From IMG/VR virus record IMGVR_UViG_3300004805_000046, positions 1-20,582 of that record: a stretch of DNA of 20,582 nucleotides; one strand, given 5' to 3'. Of this stretch, positions 4,117 to 19,858 are shown in pieces. Position numbers and translations under genes: made by a program. The notes below the pieces were generated by a model. It made no database searches and had not been told where the DNA came from. It was given only the letters and a program-made list of their open reading frames with translations. The stretch comes from a virus. How positions within the stretch are numbered: the stretch's first letter is position 1; the number at the start of each line of letters is the position of its first letter.

Positions 4117-4506
4117 CTACGAAACCGTCACTGTTACTGTACCGATTATCACACTACAGACCAAATAATTTGGCGTTGTTTGTGTGACTGCGCTATCTCC
4201 ACCGCCAACCGGGTTCCAACCCCACTGAAATACTCTGCTACCTTGGGCAAGCGAATCGTCCACTGTAAGCCCAGACTGCAAGTAGCTATTGTCCCGCCTC
4301 GGGTTACGTAAAGCCTGTGGGTCTTGGACAGGATACATCCCTAATTGTAATTGTGGATGATCTGGACTCCAACATTCACTACATACCAACAGCCCCGTTC
4401 TTTTCAACTTAACAACTTCGTACTGCAAGTTTTTAAGCAGGAACTGAAACCCACACCTATCGCAGACACTTATCGCCTTCTTGCCACTAGCAAAAGGGCT
4501 ACCCAT
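4117..4506 (-). CDS. Zinc-ribbon virion-associated protein
   Basis: A 129-residue protein with an N-terminal four-cysteine zinc ribbon: CDRCGFQF (Cys15, Cys18) and LLVCSECWSPDHPQ (Cys42, Cys45). It is followed by the signature PVQDPQALRNPRRDNSY. This pairing of CxxC...CxxC with DPQALRNPR is a pattern I know from conserved hypothetical proteins in the structural modules of environmental phages. The C-terminal third is beta-prone and hydrophobic (LVCSVIIGTVTVTVS). Its start overlaps the end of the HNH endonuclease gene by 8 nt. The role may be a minor virion or connector-associated protein; the metal site is inferred from cysteine spacing. Confidence 0.72.
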   Translation of the reverse strand: MGSPFASGKKAISVCDRCGFQFLLKNLQYEVVKLKRTGLLVCSECWSPDHPQLQLGMYPVQDPQALRNPRRDNSYLQSGLTVDDSLAQGSRVFQWGWNPVGGGDSAVTQTTPNYLVCSVIIGTVTVTVS

Positions 4507-5098
4507 ACGCCACCCGATTACCTTTACGACAGTTTTCCAAGCCCGGTATAACCTGCATATTCAGCGGAGTGTGCAGCCCAGAAACAATCTTTCCCTGCAG
4601 CGGAATCACATGATCCACGTGCCACGGAAATCCAAACATCTTGGTTCGTAATGCAGCTAATTCATGCGCCTGTTCAATCATCCACATATCGTCTTCTGCC
4701 AGCCAAGCAGGGGTGCGTTGAAGTTTTGCGGCTTTGCGCTTCGCTACCAGCGCGTTTATCTTGCCGGGATTCTCCTGTGCGTACTGCTTCTTGCTTGCTA
4801 CTACCGCTGCTCTGTTAACCGCCCGATAGTTCGCCGCATACTGTAAGTTAGTTGCCTGCCGAAGCTGGTACTGCTCTTTCCCAAGTTGCTTGTATTTCTC
4901 GGGGTCTTCGGCATATCTGGCACGAAGTTTTAACTTATTCTCTTCGTGGTTGGCAAACCATGCCGCTTTCTTATCCGCAAGCACTTTCTCACGATTTCTG
5001 AGTCGCCACGCAGCCTGATCTGCTTTCGTCTTTTCTAGGTGCGCTAAACGATACGCCTTCTTACAGGCGGCAGCAGCAAGAGGGTCTTTATGCGGCAT
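4499..5098 (-). CDS. Free-standing HNH endonuclease
   Basis: A 199-residue protein. Residues 1-130 form a long Lys/Arg/Ala-rich helical region with repeated short units (AWRLRNREK, AWFANHEENK, RARYAEDPEKYKQ), probably for DNA binding. The HNH nuclease is at the C-terminus: WHVDHVIPLQGK gives His160, Asp162 and His163, followed by SGLHTPLNMQVIP (Asn180) and LENCRKGNR (Asn189). This is the HNH type common in free-standing phage homing endonucleases. It lies between the connector gene (stop 3 nt upstream) and the zinc-ribbon gene (8-nt overlap). No strong SD is visible, so it may be translated by coupling from the connector gene. It is probably a mobile insertion in the structural operon. Confidence 0.88.
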   Translation of the reverse strand: MPHKDPLAAAACKKAYRLAHLEKTKADQAAWRLRNREKVLADKKAAWFANHEENKLKLRARYAEDPEKYKQLGKEQYQLRQATNLQYAANYRAVNRAAVVASKKQYAQENPGKINALVAKRKAAKLQRTPAWLAEDDMWMIEQAHELAALRTKMFGFPWHVDHVIPLQGKIVSGLHTPLNMQVIPGLENCRKGNRVAYG

Positions 5099-5101
5099 AA
5101 C

Positions 5102-5791
5102 TTAGCTTATGAACATTTGCCGGGGCACCAGACGAAGGGTAGCTTTTTCTCTGTCCTCGGAACTGGCTAAATCCCACGCTTCTTGATATTGCTGCTGTAG
5201 CATACCCAGCCGCTCCATCCCATTAGGCAGCTTCAGCGCCAAGTAGTACGCCAGCCCAGCAACTAGTGAAGGGAGGAAGCGGAACGGCACATCCGGGGTG
5301 TTGGCACCATTGCCAGCGTCTTGCAGTCTACGCAAACGCCAGTACACGATCTGATAGGTCTGGGACGCATCAGGAACAGGCCAGAGCGTAAATTGTGGTG
5401 CTTCCAGACGTTGTATCCAGATTTGCAATGGACGCGCCTGAGAGAGTTTATTTGGGATCGTGGCATAGGTACTGGAACTGATGCGAGTACAAGTCAAGTC
5501 AGCCTGCGTTGATGCACTACCTGCGCCTGTACGGATCACATGGTCGATAAGGTCAACTGTATCTGCGGGAAGTACGTAGGTAGCGGTTCCGGGGACAAGG
5601 TTGATGGTGCCTGAGTCGATTGTCCATAGGTTAATGCCACGGTTGGCCCAATCTGCAAACAGCAGATTCATGCTGCGGCGTGCGGTACGTAAAGAATATC
5701 CTGTCCTCAATTCTTCTCCACACCGCTCCATCGCCTCTTCTACGATTTCTGGAAAATCCAAAACAAAGCCTGTCGTACCCGACGTGGTCAT
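5102..5791 (-). CDS. Head-tail connector (gp4/tail tubular A-like)
   Basis: A 229-residue protein with ATG 5791 and SD GGAG (GTAGGAGCAGTAT), overlapping the preceding endonuclease stop as ATGA. The N-terminal helices (FPEIVEEAMERCGEELRTGY, then RRSMNLLFADWANRGINLWT) followed by a strand-rich middle (LVPGTATYVLPADTVDLIDH, QFTLWPVPDASQTYQIVYWR) and C-terminal helices (LPSLVAGLAYYLALKLPN) fit the podoviral connector family that sits under the portal, comparable to P22 gp4 and T7 gp11. Length is in the usual range. It would join the portal ring to the tail and help seal packaged DNA. The family call is by pattern recognition, with no structural comparison. Confidence 0.75.
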   Translation of the reverse strand: MTTSGTTGFVLDFPEIVEEAMERCGEELRTGYSLRTARRSMNLLFADWANRGINLWTIDSGTINLVPGTATYVLPADTVDLIDHVIRTGAGSASTQADLTCTRISSSTYATIPNKLSQARPLQIWIQRLEAPQFTLWPVPDASQTYQIVYWRLRRLQDAGNGANTPDVPFRFLPSLVAGLAYYLALKLPNGMERLGMLQQQYQEAWDLASSEDREKATLRLVPRQMFIS

Positions 5792-6654
5792 ATACTGCTC
5801 CTACAGTTAGAAAAATGCCACCGCTTCATAGCATTTACGTGGCCTGCTTTCCCGCAGTGCGGGCATACTACTGGCTCTCTAGCTGCATGTGCGGCGATCA
5901 TTTTAGCACGGGTATCATCTGTATGGGTCTTGCCAAAGAAGGGGTTTCCCTCACCGGTAAACATCTCCGCGTAGCGCCGCTTTAACGCCTCCGGCACTAC
6001 TCGCCCAAACATGGGATTGTTTCTGCCACGAACACGGCCCGGGTTATTTGCGTGGTTACGTTTTTGCGAAGCACGTATCTTTTCATTACGGGTAGTAGCA
6101 CCAACCTCCGCGTAGTGTTGTTCCAGAGTAGTATCCACTGCGTGAATACGACGCGCTTTATTCCTTGCGGCTAGCGCATCTCGCTCGTATTGTTGAATAG
6201 GTAGTTTGCGCAGTACTTTGCCCTTAAAGGAATTCCGTAAAAGTTCCCGTGTACTATCGGCAACCGGATGCCCCATCTGTCCAGCAGACATTCGACTACG
6301 AGTCTCCGTGCTGCGAATCTTACCTTTACCCGCTAGTGATATTTTGGCGCGTACTTCCATAGAAGGACTTCCTAATTGCCCCCCGCCACCCATCGCGTTA
6401 TAGTGCGGGCGCAGCGTCACGATGTGCTTGACTTCAGCGGCATTAAGGCTATCGCGGTCTTCACATTCCTCAATAATTTCATGGGTAAATGCGCCGGGGC
6501 CATATTTACGAATAGCTGCCGCCATAACCCATCCGGCACCATTACGGGCATCTTGACAGTGCTTCGACCAACGCGAGCTAAAACGCGTCTTTGTCTGCCC
6601 TATGTAGAAATGCCCGTTCACCGTATTTGTTACCTTATACACAATGCCGTACAT
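5788..6654 (-). CDS. GIY-YIG homing endonuclease with NUMOD3 repeats and zinc finger
   Basis: A 288-residue protein with SD AAGGA and ATG 6654. The GIY-YIG nuclease is N-terminal: MYGIVYKVTN (GIY-equivalent at residues 3-6), FYIGQT (residues 16-21), Arg28, His32 and the likely catalytic Glu74. The middle carries NUMOD3-type DNA-binding repeats (GRNNPMFGRVVPEALKRR and GEGNPFFGKTHTDDTRAKM). The C-terminus holds a Cys264/Cys267/His280/Cys284 zinc finger. This is the SegA/I-TevI-like free-standing endonuclease design. It sits between a small gene and the connector gene, has its own promoter-like sequence upstream, and its stop overlaps the connector start (ATGA). The connector's SD lies inside its last codons. 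Confidence 0.93.
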   Translation of the reverse strand: MYGIVYKVTNTVNGHFYIGQTKTRFSSRWSKHCQDARNGAGWVMAAAIRKYGPGAFTHEIIEECEDRDSLNAAEVKHIVTLRPHYNAMGGGGQLGSPSMEVRAKISLAGKGKIRSTETRSRMSAGQMGHPVADSTRELLRNSFKGKVLRKLPIQQYERDALAARNKARRIHAVDTTLEQHYAEVGATTRNEKIRASQKRNHANNPGRVRGRNNPMFGRVVPEALKRRYAEMFTGEGNPFFGKTHTDDTRAKMIAAHAAREPVVCPHCGKAGHVNAMKRWHFSNCRSSI

Positions 6655-9404: not shown

Positions 9405-10151
9405 CTACTTTAACTCTGGGGGTGCAAGTTTCTTTTGCCCCCGCTTCGCAAGAAATGCGGCTTTCCATACCGGGTCTGCCCATCGCGCCCTAAGCGCAGC
9501 AGCCTTAGCTGCCTTCACATCAGGTCGGTTAGCTATCTCTTTATTGTTGGCTGTCTGTGCGGCAGCGTACAGCGGATCGGCCCATTGTGCCGAAGCCTGT
9601 TTGCTGGTCTTGGCCTTGGAAGCGTCTGTGCTACGGGCAGCGGCGATACCGTCCTGCCGCTTCTCGCGTATATCGGCCTTTTTCCATGTGGCTATGCTAG
9701 CTTCCGACTTGACTGCACGTGCTTCGGGGGTGCCTTGCACTTTGGTCTGGGCGGCGACTACCTTGGCGCGGTACTCCGGGCGCTGCCATTTATCCTCAGA
9801 CATTTTCTGAATAACCGCCTTCTGTGCAGCAGTCCACACAGTACCACTACCGCCTTCGCCCCCATCAGTAAGATTGAACAGCGTACCCGTGCCGAGGTTC
9901 CGCCGCCCATAGACAGCAATCAGCTCTATCTCTTTGGTGAAGGCAGCGGCCTCATCAGGTGTTTCAAGCACGCGCTGGGGATGTACCTCAAGTCCCTTCT
10001 GGCGCAGGTGAGACATGAAGTCTTGAAAAGGTTTGTTGTGTGAACCTTTAAGCCAGTGGGACACATCCCTATCCCCCGTGCCTTTACCTACGTACACAGG
10101 CTGGTTGTTCTTACTGGGGCGGGGGTCACGGTAAACATAAACATAAAACAT
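9405..10151 (-). CDS. GIY-YIG endonuclease, free-standing
   Basis: A 248-residue protein. The frame is open to 10367, but the start is placed at ATG 10151, which has a strong SD (AAGGAG, 6 nt away) and begins exactly with the nuclease fold; a longer start would run through the terminator and promoter. The nuclease is MFYVYVYRDPRPSK (Tyr5-Val6-Tyr7) with PVYVGKGTGDR (Tyr20-Val21-Gly22, Arg28), the likely catalytic Glu74 and the closing LFNLTDGGEG. The C-terminal half has repeated basic helical units (EDKWQRPEYRAKVV, SAQWADPLYAAAQ, ARWADPVWKAAF) typical of DNA-binding repeats in homing endonucleases. It lies behind the capsid terminator with its own promoter-like site and is probably a mobile gene. 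Confidence 0.9.
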   Translation of the reverse strand: MFYVYVYRDPRPSKNNQPVYVGKGTGDRDVSHWLKGSHNKPFQDFMSHLRQKGLEVHPQRVLETPDEAAAFTKEIELIAVYGRRNLGTGTLFNLTDGGEGGSGTVWTAAQKAVIQKMSEDKWQRPEYRAKVVAAQTKVQGTPEARAVKSEASIATWKKADIREKRQDGIAAARSTDASKAKTSKQASAQWADPLYAAAQTANNKEIANRPDVKAAKAAALRARWADPVWKAAFLAKRGQKKLAPPELK

Positions 10152-10174
10152 GGTAGCTCCTTGGTTGATGCCCA

Positions 10175-10203
10175 AGTATATACCAATGAACGGAGAATTA
10201 CAA
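10175..10203 (-). promoter_or_regulatory. Sigma-70-like promoter before second GIY-YIG gene
   Basis: On the minus strand, TTGTAA (10203-10198) and TATACT (10180-10175) are 17 nt apart; the matches are 4/6 and 5/6. TGG directly before an alternative TATATA also gives an extended -10 look. The predicted start is about 10168, just before the SD and ATG 10151. Because a terminator lies between this site and the capsid gene, it could restart transcription for the left half of the operon. Confidence 0.6.
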
Positions 10204-10257
10204 GTATTTCGCAGGGTTACGAAAAGGTTATGACACAGGAAATCCGTACACACAAAG

Positions 10258-10283
10258 AAAAAGGGAGCCGTAGCTCCCTTTTT
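10258..10283 (-). terminator. Intrinsic terminator after major capsid gene
   Basis: A perfect hairpin: AAGGGAGC (10261-10268) pairs with GCTCCCTT (10273-10280) around a 4-base loop, extended by A-runs and T-runs to an 11-bp stem (10258-10283). Read on the minus strand it ends in a short T-tract, 35 nt after the capsid stop. It is symmetric, so it could act in both directions, but only the minus strand has genes here. Confidence 0.8.
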
Positions 10284-10317
10284 GATAGCATAGAATCTAG
10301 GTTCTATGCGGGTTCGC

Positions 10318-11235
10318 TTAGGACGAACCGGGGCTACCAAATACCCCGAGCGGATCGCTGACACCAAAAGAATAGCGTTCGCGGCTCTTATATCTCACGT
10401 TGCCTGTATCAAAGTCTCCATCCATTCCGGTACTCAAAGGAGTACGGACGAAGTGCTTCAGGCCGTTCGGAACGTCAGTCAGCAAGAACCAAGCATTCGT
10501 GTCGGTCAAGAAGTGGTTAACGGTGTAGCCTTCGGGGATGGAACCGTTGTTCTTCAGCGCGTTGAGATCGTTGTCAGCGGTGCCAACACGGAGGTTGGTT
10601 TCCAAGACACGGGTAGCAACGAATTGCAGAGCAGGCGGGATCACCAGCTTCTTCGGCTTTGCAGCGATCAGCAGACCACGCTCATCAGTCCAAGCGGCGA
10701 TCTGAATGACTGCGTTTTCCAACGAAGTTTCATTCAAGTCAGCGCCGGTAGTTGGGCGATTGCTATTGGTGCCGCCACCAACCAGCGGGTGTGCCGTAGA
10801 GAACAGCACTTGACCGTCACCATAGGTGGGGTTGCCCACACCAGTGAAGCCGGTGTTCAGGGTGTAAGCACCCTTGACCTGCTTGGTATAAGCCATTGCA
10901 CGGGCCAAAGACTTCGTATAACGAGCCGAGAGGCTGTCATACAGATTATCTTCAACCGCTTCTTCCGTGATGGAGAAGCCCATTGCGATGGTCTGGTGAT
11001 CGTAACGAGCAGTCCATGCTTCTTGCGCGTTGTCATACGCAATAGCAGAACCTTCGTTCTTCACCGGGGCCGCACCGAAGCCAGCCAGCTTGGTTTCTTC
11101 TTCAAAGGAGCGCTCAGACGATTCGGTTTCATAAATTTCTTTATGTTCTTCACCGTAACGAGCATATTCCATACCGAACAGAGCGTTCAGGCCGGGAAGG
11201 AGTTCCTTCAGTAGTTGTGCGCGAGAGATTGCCAT
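10318..11235 (-). CDS. Major capsid protein (Mu gpT-like family)
   Basis: A 305-residue protein with SD AAGGAG before ATG 11235. The N-terminus MAISRAQLLKELLPGLNALF and the following EEHKEIYETESSERSFEEET segment, then AWTARYDHQTIAMGFSITEE and DNLYDSLSARYTKSLARAMA, fit the Mu gpT-like HK97-fold major head subunit. Later conserved parts are DGQVLFSTAHPL, LIAAKPKKLVIPPALQ and AWFLLTDVPNGLKHF, ending YSFGVSDPLGVFG. It would polymerise with the scaffold into the procapsid. It lies directly after the probable decoration protein and is followed by a strong terminator, a usual arrangement for the most abundant virion protein. No protease gene is visible nearby. Confidence 0.88.
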   Translation of the reverse strand: MAISRAQLLKELLPGLNALFGMEYARYGEEHKEIYETESSERSFEEETKLAGFGAAPVKNEGSAIAYDNAQEAWTARYDHQTIAMGFSITEEAVEDNLYDSLSARYTKSLARAMAYTKQVKGAYTLNTGFTGVGNPTYGDGQVLFSTAHPLVGGGTNSNRPTTGADLNETSLENAVIQIAAWTDERGLLIAAKPKKLVIPPALQFVATRVLETNLRVGTADNDLNALKNNGSIPEGYTVNHFLTDTNAWFLLTDVPNGLKHFVRTPLSTGMDGDFDTGNVRYKSRERYSFGVSDPLGVFGSPGSS

Positions 11236-16445: not shown

Positions 16446-16706
16446 TTAGCCCTTAAGAGTAGCCCGATTGGTCTTGAGGTTGTAATTGTATTTGGATGTG
16501 GGCTTCCCGGATAGCTTAGACGCCCTATCCTTGGCACGCTCCTCTGCGGTCATCCTGTTCCGCGCTTCCCCCGCAGCGGTCAATTTTTCAGAGTCCTTCT
16601 CCATCTGCCCCCGCGCTCTGAGTAGCCCCAAAGCAGTTTCCCGGGAGCCAACTTGGGAAGTCAGGCGGTCAATCAGGTCATTTCTGCCTGTATGTTTCTG
16701 TGTCAT
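16446..16706 (-). CDS. Conserved small protein between terL and portal, 86 aa
   Basis: ATG 16706 shares a base with the TerL stop (TAATG), so it is coupled to terminase translation. The protein is strongly charged and helical: RETALGLLRARGQMEKDSEK, then LTAAGEARNRMTAEERAKDR and SGKPTSKYNYNLKTNRATL. The LTAAG-x-x-R-x-x-MTAEERAKDRAS core and the Y-N-x-K-T-N-R-A-T-L ending are a pattern that recurs in small proteins next to portal genes of environmental phages. No enzymatic motif is visible. It may assist packaging or portal assembly; unproven. Confidence 0.68.
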   Translation of the reverse strand: MTQKHTGRNDLIDRLTSQVGSRETALGLLRARGQMEKDSEKLTAAGEARNRMTAEERAKDRASKLSGKPTSKYNYNLKTNRATLKG

Positions 16707-19126
16707 TAGTAGTACCCTCCTGCACGCCGTGGTGTAAACGGTTGCCCGTCCTCGATATCTGTATTAAGTTTGAGCATCCCACCCTTACGGATTCGCATCA
16801 ATCCAAGCGTCATAGTATCGACCTCATCGTCATGTTCCCCAGCAGGAAATGCCAATATCTCTTCCACAACCTCCGCAGCCCAATGCGTTTCAGGAAACCA
16901 TATATGCCCCGATGCGTACATGTCAGCTACGGCATTCAACCGTGCTATCTTATCCTGCCCTTTACCCGGGCTGTAGTCCTGCACAAATATGCCTGATCTT
17001 CGCATCTCATCAATCAACGGCTGACCGCTTGCCTTGGCCTCCACAATCACACTGTCCGGTTGCCATATCTCATACTGCTCGTGAGCCATCTTCTTTAGCT
17101 CGGGAAACTCGTACTTGCCCTTGACCCGGTTCAGCAGGATAGCGTTAGTAACCTTGTCTTCGTTCGTCCATACACCCCAAGTTTGGCATACCGAAAAGTC
17201 CGAGCGTTCCTTAGTAGTGAGCGCAGTATCCCAAGCCTGTACAATAAAGTCAACTGCAGGTGGACTCTCGCTAGGCCACCACTTTATCCAATCCCGCTTA
17301 ATAATCGCAGCTTCTGCAGCCGTGGGATTCTGCTGGTACTGCGCATACCACTGCCACATTATGTGGTGCATCGACGCCCGTGTTTGCTGCAGGCTTGCAA
17401 TGCTCCACTGCTCGGGCCACAGAGATTTCTCCTCTGTAGTGCCTTCGTTCAGGATAGCCGGGAACTCAAATGACTCGTACTTATCCCCACCAACATTCAG
17501 TTCTGAATCTTTCAGCAGTCGCCCTATCAAGTCCCTTTGGTGCCATCTGGTGTTATGGCTAACCACCCCATTCGCTATGAAGCTCTCTGTGCCTTCAACC
17601 TGAATATCAAATACATCCTCTTCTCCATCAGGGATTATGGATACGATCTCATCCAGCGTGAGACTCAATGTACTTAATGGCTTTGCGGAGAAGATCGGGG
17701 GTGTTGCGTTCTTTAACAACGAGGTTGCATGAGTTGCATAGTAGTGCGCGGACTTTGCCAGTTGGGTGGCAGTGGTCAACAGCCAACCTCCGAACTTTCC
17801 ATGCCGCTGGGGTGTTGGTGTCAGTTGGAGGCTCCCCGCATATTGCACAGACCCCAGACTGCTCGGAAAACATTCGGTCGTAGTCAGCCCCAGTGATCCC
17901 ATACTGCAGCTTGAGATGCGCGTCACTTCGTTTCTTGGGGCAGTAGTGACCCCCTTTTGCTTTGCGCTCAGCGTAGATAGCTTTGTTGTTACACGCGAGG
18001 CAAAGTCCTTTAGCGTACGCAGGGTTGTTGCAGTCAGGTGTGCCGCAAGTCTTACCCCTCCACTTACCCCAACCAGTTGCTGCAAGGCTTTCTGGAGCTT
18101 CTCTACGCGCCTTGTGGTAGTGGTACTTACACTTTCCTCTAGCGTAGTGGGGTTCCGCGCATCCGGGTTCGTCGCACATACAAGGGACATCCCCACCTGC
18201 AAGTCGCATATTGGTATCCATTGTTCTACTCCGTTTTGGTTCACAAGCAGCGGATGCCGCTCATTCCCACGGATTATAACACCAGACTTCAACGCCACTG
18301 AATAAACGCGATCTAACCCTTGGTTTGACCAACCTAACACCTTAGCAGCACGGAACCCCCCATCCACATAGCTAGCTACCATATCTCCGGGCTGCACGTT
18401 TTTTATGGGTTTGTCGGTGCCGTTTGCCAGCGTGACTCGGGTATCCCCGGTTAAACAGTGCAACACGCATATCTTCCCACCCGGCATCAAGCGCGTGCGC
18501 AGGCCAGCACTAAACCACTCGTAGACCGTGTCAAGGGATGTGGTGTTCCCCATTTTGATGTCTTGCTCTGACAACGGATCATCTGCCACGATTAAGTTAG
18601 CCCCCCGTCCAGCTAACGCACCACCCACACCGATTGCGAAGAACTCACCCCCGGCAGTTGTGTTCCATTGACCTGCGGCCTTGGCATCTGCGGCAATTAA
18701 GGTATTAGGGAAAATCGTGCGATATTCTGTAGTCTGCATTAAGTTACGCACCTTGCGCGACATGACAACAGCCAGATCAACAGTATGCGAAGCCACAATA
18801 ACCTTGTGATCCGGGTGTTTGCCAAGATACCACGCCGGGTAATATATGGAAATCATCTGCGATTTGCCAAAACGCGGTGCCATTGACACAGCAATCCGGG
18901 TTTTTACCTCCTGTTCTACGTCCATTAACAGGCTTCCGAGCTTTTTCAGATGAATACCAAACTTATATGCCGGGTCTACCGCAGCAATAAACGCGAGGAA
19001 GTCGTTTTGGCAGATATTTATCCGTTTGCGACCTTCTAGCTCATTCATCATCGTAAGAATGGCGGCTTTTTCCCCATCTGGCAGGGATTTTAGTATCTTT
19101 GTAATCTGGGATTGCGTCAGGCTCAT
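16706..19126 (-). CDS. terL: Terminase large subunit, interrupted by an intein
   Basis: An 806-residue precursor; removing the 302-residue intein leaves 504 residues, a normal TerL size. The ATPase domain has a Walker A-type motif (MAPRFGKSQ, 82-90) and Walker B (ANLIVADDP, 176-184); the coupling motif TRWHQRDLIGRL starts at 526, directly after the intein. The RNase H-like nuclease has AWDTALTTKERSDF (Asp633), VIVEAKASGQPL (Glu696) and GEHDDEVDTMTLGL (Asp766/Asp767/Asp770). It drives DNA translocation into the head and cuts concatemers. ATG overlaps the small terminase stop (ATGA). The intein lies between residues 223 and 526 (His | intein | Thr), so function depends on splicing. The frame is open throughout. 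Confidence 0.95.
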   Translation of the reverse strand: MSLTQSQITKILKSLPDGEKAAILTMMNELEGRKRINICQNDFLAFIAAVDPAYKFGIHLKKLGSLLMDVEQEVKTRIAVSMAPRFGKSQMISIYYPAWYLGKHPDHKVIVASHTVDLAVVMSRKVRNLMQTTEYRTIFPNTLIAADAKAAGQWNTTAGGEFFAIGVGGALAGRGANLIVADDPLSEQDIKMGNTTSLDTVYEWFSAGLRTRLMPGGKICVLHCLTGDTRVTLANGTDKPIKNVQPGDMVASYVDGGFRAAKVLGWSNQGLDRVYSVALKSGVIIRGNERHPLLVNQNGVEQWIPICDLQVGMSLVCATNPDARNPTTLEESVSTTTTRRVEKLQKALQQLVGVSGGVRLAAHLTATTLRTLKDFASRVTTKLSTLSAKQKGVTTAPRNEVTRISSCSMGSLGLTTTECFPSSLGSVQYAGSLQLTPTPQRHGKFGGWLLTTATQLAKSAHYYATHATSLLKNATPPIFSAKPLSTLSLTLDEIVSIIPDGEEDVFDIQVEGTESFIANGVVSHNTRWHQRDLIGRLLKDSELNVGGDKYESFEFPAILNEGTTEEKSLWPEQWSIASLQQTRASMHHIMWQWYAQYQQNPTAAEAAIIKRDWIKWWPSESPPAVDFIVQAWDTALTTKERSDFSVCQTWGVWTNEDKVTNAILLNRVKGKYEFPELKKMAHEQYEIWQPDSVIVEAKASGQPLIDEMRRSGIFVQDYSPGKGQDKIARLNAVADMYASGHIWFPETHWAAEVVEEILAFPAGEHDDEVDTMTLGLMRIRKGGMLKLNTDIEDGQPFTPRRAGGYY
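17649..18221 (-). CDS. Endonuclease VII-type HNH nuclease nested out of frame in the intein
   Basis: A 190-residue protein on the same strand as TerL but in another frame, wholly inside the intein. ATG 18221 has SD GGAG 7 nt upstream (18229-18232). The N-terminus has two tandem Cys-rich units: CDEPGCAEPHYARGKCKYH (16-34) and CGTPDCNNPAYAKGLCLAC (59-77), likely zinc-binding. The nuclease is the recombination endonuclease VII family: LQYGITGADYDRMFSEQSGV, CAIC (Cys125/Cys128), LAVDHCHPTGKVRALLCNSC (Asp149, His150, His152, Cys162, Cys165) and Asn166. It would cut the intein-less terL allele to spread the intein. Coding quality is clearly better in this frame than in the intein frame here. The stop (TGA 17649) falls exactly where the intein's C-terminal splicing block begins. 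Confidence 0.9.
   Translation of the reverse strand: MDTNMRLAGGDVPCMCDEPGCAEPHYARGKCKYHYHKARREAPESLAATGWGKWRGKTCGTPDCNNPAYAKGLCLACNNKAIYAERKAKGGHYCPKKRSDAHLKLQYGITGADYDRMFSEQSGVCAICGEPPTDTNTPAAWKVRRLAVDHCHPTGKVRALLCNSCNLVVKERNTPDLLRKAIKYIESHAG
18229..18232 (-). promoter_or_regulatory. Ribosome binding site of the nested HNH gene
   Basis: On the minus strand the sequence CGGAGTAGAACA precedes ATG 18221, placing GGAG 7 nt from the start, a normal spacing. It lies within the coding sequence of the intein's N-terminal splicing domain. It decides the start at 18221 over the in-frame ATG four codons later, which has no such site. Confidence 0.7.
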
Positions 19127-19770: not shown

Positions 19771-19804
19771 AATACCCGACTTATTTAGTGGGTTATATCT
19801 TTTA
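19771..19804. repeat. 34-bp direct repeat, copy 1
   Basis: Identical to the copy at 19825-19858, with a period of 54 bp. It starts AATACCCGACTTATTTAGTG and ends in TTATATCTTTTA. Inside it is an imperfect dyad, ACCCgACT and AGTGGGT around TATTT. A weaker match (GGCATCC) extends to the left of both copies. Candidate protein-binding site (operator, packaging or origin). Confidence 0.9.
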
Positions 19805-19824: not shown

Positions 19825-19858
19825 AATACCCGACTTATTTAGTGGGTTATATCTTTTA
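19825..19858. repeat. 34-bp direct repeat, copy 2
   Basis: Second identical copy, separated from the first by 20 bp, so the two sites lie about five helical turns apart on the same DNA face. No further copy was noticed in the window. The exact identity, in a region where nothing encodes protein, argues for recent duplication or selection on a binding site. Confidence 0.9.

Follow-up and report, generated by a model that had tools for sequence, protein, structure and literature searches.

The terminase large-subunit gene (terL) on the viral DNA analysed here, a stretch of 20,582 nucleotides referred to below as the window, raises two questions: how a gene essential to the phage can house a second, nuclease-coding gene and still stay in one piece, and what that nuclease is for. 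A sequence-only reading had proposed an intein at 17552-18457 with a complete endonuclease VII (EndoVII)-type HNH gene nested inside it in a different frame. Our analysis makes it highly probable that terL carries, in its ATPase C-motif, a mobile class-1-type intein whose homing endonuclease is overprinted on the intein and internally initiated.

Table 1. Features of terL, its intein and the nested HNH gene in the window
Feature	Position	Strand	Details
terL precursor ORF	16706..19126	-	806 aa; Terminase_6C, phrog_38 E=1.5e-90; stop-free
N-extein	18458..19126	-	223 aa; last residues ..GKICVLH, at the ATPase C-motif; GKICVLH|TRWHQRDL in relatives lacking the intein
Intein	17552..18457	-	302 aa; Cys1, block B NERHP, block G ..SHN, Thr+1
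Hint N-terminal part, folded	18158..18457	-	intein residues 1-100; pLDDT 83-98; Foldseek: DnaB/RecA mini-inteins
Intein loop in TerL frame, overprinted on HNH	17687..18157	-	intein residues 101-257; pLDDT about 30; residues drift
Hint C-terminal part, blocks F and G	17552..17686	-	intein residues 258-302; pLDDT 88-98
Nested EndoVII-type HNH, homing-endonuclease-like	17649..18221	-	190 codons and stop; frame +2 relative to TerL
Endonuclease_7 catalytic domain of nested protein	17664..17918	-	HNH residues 102-186; Foldseek: Hpy99I, T4 EndoVII
HNH start ATG (18219-18221) built on TGG (18218-18220) of invariant Trp80	18218..18221	-	base-before-Trp counts, 88 loci
Shine-Dalgarno-like GGAG upstream of HNH start	18229..18232	-	SD-like core in 58% of 88 loci, 7.3% at control Trp codons
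C-extein	16706..17551	-	281 aa; begins TRWHQRDL

The 806-aa terL product matches both Pfam Intein_splicing (E=3.5e-11) and Terminase_6C, the nuclease domain of terminases (E=7.7e-10). The intein begins with CLTGDTRV and ends in SHN|T, and removal of its 302 aa leaves an extein total of 504 aa. The proposed intein boundaries proved exact, and the empty site of relatives lies at the identical point. Among 33 homologues, C1, H68 and N302 are invariant and H301 is kept in at least 90%; Thr+1 is present, and the interruption of TerL is exact, in frame and located at the ATPase C-motif, as is characteristic of a class 1 intein host site. We therefore file the splicing part as a class 1 intein, on the basis that its testable defining features were found and that splicing has been published for a homologue. 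The TerL ORF is uninterrupted, whereas a split intein breaks its host gene into two ORFs. An RNA intron was rejected as the identity of the insert, since the window contains no Rfam match to a group I or group II intron at gathering score.

The nested ORF matches Pfam Endonuclease_7 (PF02945; E=1.1e-19, 70.6 bits against a curated cut-off of 23.6) and PHROG endonuclease VII (E=1.5e-29). The catalytic-motif residues D149, H150, H152, N163 and N166, together with the zinc-binding C125, C128, C162 and C165, are invariant in 33 sequences. The nested protein is thus filed as an EndoVII-type HNH, and the earlier claim of a full 190-residue protein of this type in another frame holds. Specifically, HNH codon position 1 coincides with TerL position 3, and HNH position 3 with TerL position 2. 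The gene had been placed between the splicing blocks. It does lie inside the intein, but not solely between the blocks: about 20 codons at its 5′ end overlap the folded intein, with the start codon on Trp80 of the Hint fold.

The predicted structures follow this division. An AlphaFold model of the in-frame intein, run with 33 homologues, has high pLDDT over residues 1-100 and about 260-302 and low pLDDT over residues 101-257 (values in Table 1), leaving the 157-residue overprinted loop without predicted structure. The nearest solved structures found by Foldseek are the Ssp and Npu DnaB and Mtu RecA mini-inteins (TMt 0.77-0.89). The HNH model has a mean pLDDT of 85.7; among solved structures it comes closest to Hpy99I and T4 endonuclease VII, a modest resemblance with a best E value of 2.7e-3. 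Two complete genes share one stretch of DNA: from one come the folding ends with their free filler, from the other an enzyme. The unstructured loop offers a natural example of what an intein tolerates inside.

To define how widespread the layout is, we conducted two surveys. Searching with a profile of the nested HNH yielded 80 viral loci. In each of the best 37, the HNH lies out of frame inside an ORF of 550-1130 aa; the enclosing ORFs of these 37 nearly always have a C-terminal intein block like TENFIANGLVSHN|T. The lower-ranked matches are mostly free-standing, and the corresponding frame closes after 8-115 codons. To check that the nested cases had not been picked in a circular way, the Hint blocks were run by tblastn against all non-nested HNH matches; they hit only L160, itself nested, and no HNH match with an intein context had a closed TerL frame. 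Four loci with short open second frames devoid of any Hint motif (L272, L275, L276 and L278) and one whose 819-aa second frame does not cover the HNH (L277) were left out of the count.

The second survey used the N-terminal intein blocks alone as query, with no HNH required, and gave 80 loci, some of them near-duplicates. EndoVII HNHs are present in 75 of the 80, every one in frame +2; in L220 the HNH is cut by the contig end and matches in frame +2. This constancy was taken from independent HMM frames and offsets, as the set of Trp80 starts described below fixes the frame by construction. A single indel in L218 shifts the TerL and HNH frames together. Three loci (L210, L215 and L243) have mini-intein forms of 144-159 aa in which the HNH is reduced to deletion remnants and the TerL frame is intact; L160 has a shortened, still nested HNH, and L117 a disrupted HNH N-terminus with the TerL frame kept.

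The search of metagenomic TerL inteins for the same insertion, suggested at the outset, thus found the element in dozens of IMG/VR contigs. The layout also occurs in Gordonia phages Affeca, Nordenberg and Angelicage and in Mycobacterium phages AlanGrant, Phlyer, Kronus, Chandler and phi1_186018, where annotation reads only 'terminase', with a putative intein added in Phlyer, and in bacterial contigs titled Nonomuraea, Mycolicibacterium, Bradyrhizobium, Chloroflexi and others. The double-coded intein/HNH is a widespread phage family overlooked by annotation, and many phage terminase annotations miss a gene.

Two further loci bear on the intein itself. A near-identical intein in IMGVR_UViG_3300025616_000138 (L002/L006) carries Asp5 to Tyr in block A (CLTGYTRV), a position invariant elsewhere; this copy may splice poorly or hold an error. 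The TerLs of L013 and L120 have two inteins each, a P-loop intein apparently with an in-frame LAGLIDADG-like endonuclease and a C-motif intein with the overprinted HNH, so that both architectures occur in one gene.

The start of the nested gene was examined at 88 non-redundant loci. The base preceding the TGG of Trp80 is A in 73, G in 13, T in 2 and C in none, whereas control Trp codons of the same genes are preceded by A 235, G 511, C 324 and T 192 times, and from the residues that precede Trp80 one would expect 28 A and 50 G. The resulting start-codon enrichment has p=4e-42, a value inflated by kinship of the sequences, although its direction is uniform. In addition, the upstream Shine-Dalgarno (SD) core is eightfold more frequent than at control Trp codons (p=1e-30, likewise inflated by kinship). 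The claim that the HNH has an SD of its own is borne out both by the GGAG of the window and by this enrichment.

Selection on the two frames was compared, by codon-phase counts and fourfold rates, in seven relatives whose inteins align over 906 nt without gaps. For TerL codon positions 1/2/3, the differences per site amount to.214/.137/.437 ahead of the HNH (Hint-N),.091/.417/.153 in the HNH core,.026/.066/.362 after the HNH (Hint-C) and.098/.058/.402 in the extein. In these close relatives the substitution phase therefore passes from TerL to HNH over the insert and back to TerL. Fourfold sites of the HNH frame change as fast (.50) as those of TerL elsewhere (.42-.58). From the phase differences and fourfold rates it follows that the HNH core is constrained and the TerL-frame residues there are nearly free: amino acids of the HNH frame are under purifying selection, and only their synonymous phase varies freely. 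Selection on the TerL frame of the loop goes no further than keeping it in phase and without stops, and the residues that it encodes drift as neutral sites do. The proposal that purifying selection keeps both frames open accordingly stands for the openness of both frames and for the HNH residues, but not for the TerL-frame residues of the loop. Codon phase reveals the selection acting on each frame, making the locus a clean, naturally occurring example of overlapping genes.

The open TerL frame is not a matter of chance. Expected stops were computed from the HNH proteins and TerL codon use: across 40 loci, the TerL frame has 0 stops where 98 are expected, whereas the third frame, as a control in the same loci, has 362 where 340 are expected. 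These counts reject a TerL frame open by chance. For the window alone, the chance of a stop-free TerL frame is about 0.004 given the HNH protein and TerL codon use, which replaces an initial estimate of 1 in 10,000.

The distribution of the element points to mobility. The site is empty at H|T, reading GKICVLH|TRWHQRDL, in 76 of the 80 closest TerLs. Distances of Hint and HNH correlate with each other (rho 0.59) more than either does with the extein (0.26 and 0.23, respectively). Inteins 83-87% identical lie inside terminases 31% identical (L121/L124), and Gordonia terminases that are 98-99% alike hold inteins whose HNHs are only about 50% alike. Sporadic occurrence at a single site, alongside empty alleles and with transfer from host to host, is the distribution of a homing endonuclease gene. 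Supported by this distribution, a homing endonuclease is the best reading of what the HNH probably does. In a tree of EndoVII-type HNHs (109 columns), a single, weakly supported branch (57-80) has the nested HNHs all to one side, and they always occupy one frame; both points fit the earlier suggestion that an independent HNH gene invaded a mini-intein.

The sequence-only reading had also held that homologues with a broken HNH and a kept intein frame would speak against it. Such homologues exist (L210, L215, L243, L160 and L117), but we read them as stages of a homing cycle, because deleted or broken HNHs together with an unbroken TerL frame are what such a cycle predicts. With stages of invasion, fixation and deletion all visible in relatives, the origin of mobile inteins becomes testable here. 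Near the C-motif of another locus (L123), an empty-site sequence (VM|TRWGKRDLTG..) is joined to the intein N-terminal part midway along the latter; this chimeric junction reflects either mis-assembly of empty and filled alleles or incomplete conversion.

In the mechanism that we propose, a single mRNA would yield two products. Translation from the terL start would give the 806-aa precursor, whose Hint halves would fold together and splice out 302 residues; splicing is expected to occur in cis because host gene and intein form one uninterrupted ORF. The 157-residue middle, with no sequence constraint of its own, would form an unstructured loop where the endonuclease sits in ordinary inteins. 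A second start, the ATG on the Trp80 codon with its own SD, would give the separate 190-aa EndoVII-type HNH in the -1 frame. The HNH would then cut intein-less terL at the C-motif codons, and repair would copy in the whole element. HNH production, empty-site cleavage and homing are the steps that we infer. The HNH probably entered once, in one frame, in an ancestor of the intein family, and intein and HNH have been transferred together from then on.

Other explanations differ from this mechanism in how the HNH is made or whether it is real. The HNH might be produced as a Hint-N/HNH fusion by programmed -1 frameshifting during terL translation, with no internal initiation. A -1 shift would indeed lead into the HNH frame, and near the start 29 of 83 loci carry an X XXY YYZ heptamer; however, the heptamer is not conserved and is absent in the window, the HNH frame has a stop within 5 codons upstream of its start in 31 of 83 loci, and the start codon and SD are strongly conserved, which together make frameshifting quite improbable. 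It is scarcely credible that the arrangement is an artefact or relic, with a sequencing error behind the frame difference or a dead HNH left open by chance. Although a few relatives do have indels or deletions (L218, L117, L210, L215 and L243), the two frames stand in the same relation in dozens of independent assemblies, finished phage genomes included, and the HNH residues are under purifying selection. As regards the layout, the artefact reading is already refuted.

A further alternative gives the HNH a role other than homing, in which the conserved protein has been co-opted, for example to aid the terminase in packaging. Its gene sits inside terL, and HNH proteins cooperate with terminases in some phages (HK97-like systems, according to work cited in PMC12613952), yet co-option appears unlikely given that 76 of 80 close TerL relatives, with their empty sites, lack the HNH, that the HNH travels with the intein between very different TerLs, and that it is deleted in some relatives whose terL is still intact. 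The remaining alternative is that the insert stays unspliced in TerL, a possibility with precedent in the out-of-frame HNH genes ShiLan and Pacc40, whose host ORFs have no splicing motifs (PMC11855218). Against it, the window family has and conserves every splicing residue as well as the Hint fold, and a homologue spliced in a reporter (PMC5050341), so that retention is very improbable. A spliced intein with an overprinted homing endonuclease remains our preferred reading.

The closest characterised inteins are the TerL6-f inteins of cluster B3/B4 mycobacteriophages (PMC5050341), which share the insertion site at the ATPase C-motif (VLH/IQ|C..SHN|T) and belong to one Hint family with the window intein, itself a distant member. 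The Chandler gp6 TerL6-f intein splices rapidly in a reporter (Kelley et al. 2016, PMC5050341). It is 254 aa long, and we find in it a nested HNH in frame +2 with a GTG start on a Trp codon and an SD-like GGAGG; nested HNHs are likewise found here in Phlyer, Kronus, AlanGrant and others. The passages of PMC5050341 that deal with TerL6-f report splicing, with no endonuclease test for this site and no mention of a nested HNH; they associate such activity with two further TerL inteins, both containing LAGLIDADG domains.

The ShiLan domain and Pacc40 gp60, in phage DNA methylases (Arsenault et al. 2025, PMC11855218), also have an HNH out of frame in an open host ORF and a sporadic distribution for which homing was proposed. 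They differ in having no intein motifs and no detectable SD and in being thought to be retained unspliced, whereas in the window family a complete Hint intein surrounds the HNH, with SD enrichment and a start codon anchored to a conserved Trp codon. Full-text searches for a published intein with a nested out-of-frame HNH found none, only ShiLan/Pacc40 and Applejack; a preprint on actinobacteriophage intein architecture (Gosselin 2025, 10.1101/2025.01.02.630785) may overlap. The statement that the layout has no named example thus holds for inteins within the full texts searched, with the unspliced ShiLan methylase insertions as a close published relative.

Ordinary mobile inteins with in-frame LAGLIDADG domains likewise hold the endonuclease at the same structural place in Hint and have empty sites and decay to mini-inteins. 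In the window family, in contrast, a different frame encodes the endonuclease, a separate protein of the EndoVII HNH type, and the filler read in the TerL frame lacks a fold. In 2009, Dassa and colleagues reportedly described split inteins of phage genes whose two halves flank a free-standing endonuclease gene. They resemble the window family in the separate gene between Hint halves and differ from it in that host gene and intein here form one uninterrupted ORF. Besides in-frame fusion and split halves, the layout is a third way to join a homing endonuclease and an intein, and it accounts for an essential phage gene harbouring a nuclease of its own while remaining whole.

Two other TerL intein sites hold two unrelated out-of-frame HNH types. 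Overprinting is likely to be general and repeatedly evolved for intein homing endonucleases, with an EndoVII HNH at the C-motif, an AP2-like HNH at Walker B and an HNH_3 at the C-terminal nuclease site; these three TerL sites would share internal initiation, with the start on a Trp codon just after block B in two of them, and the best-sampled would be an old cross-phylum mobile family.

Several separate observations concern related genes. At L011:1842-2546, L332:2426-3130 and L334:540-1271, TerL has an intein at a second site, near Walker B, where the other frame holds an unrelated HNH/AP2-type gene (phrog_3377) with a strong SD. EndoVII HNHs lie out of frame in helicase-like ORFs with no Hint blocks at L140:3279-3812 and L176:3222-3782, like ShiLan/Pacc40 (PMC11855218). 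Elsewhere in the window, all on the minus strand, 5788-6654 encodes a GIY-YIG endonuclease with NUMOD3, another homing-type gene; 4499-5098 is an unassigned HNH-like ORF (..WHVDHVIPLQGK..) and 9405-10367 a weak GIY-YIG-like ORF, each a possible selfish nuclease. Finally, a 31-bp perfect direct repeat (ACCCGACTTATTTAGTGGGTTATATCTTTTA) occupies 19774-19804 and 19828-19858, just upstream of the likely terS start, and encodes KRYNPLNKSGI twice in a long ORF.
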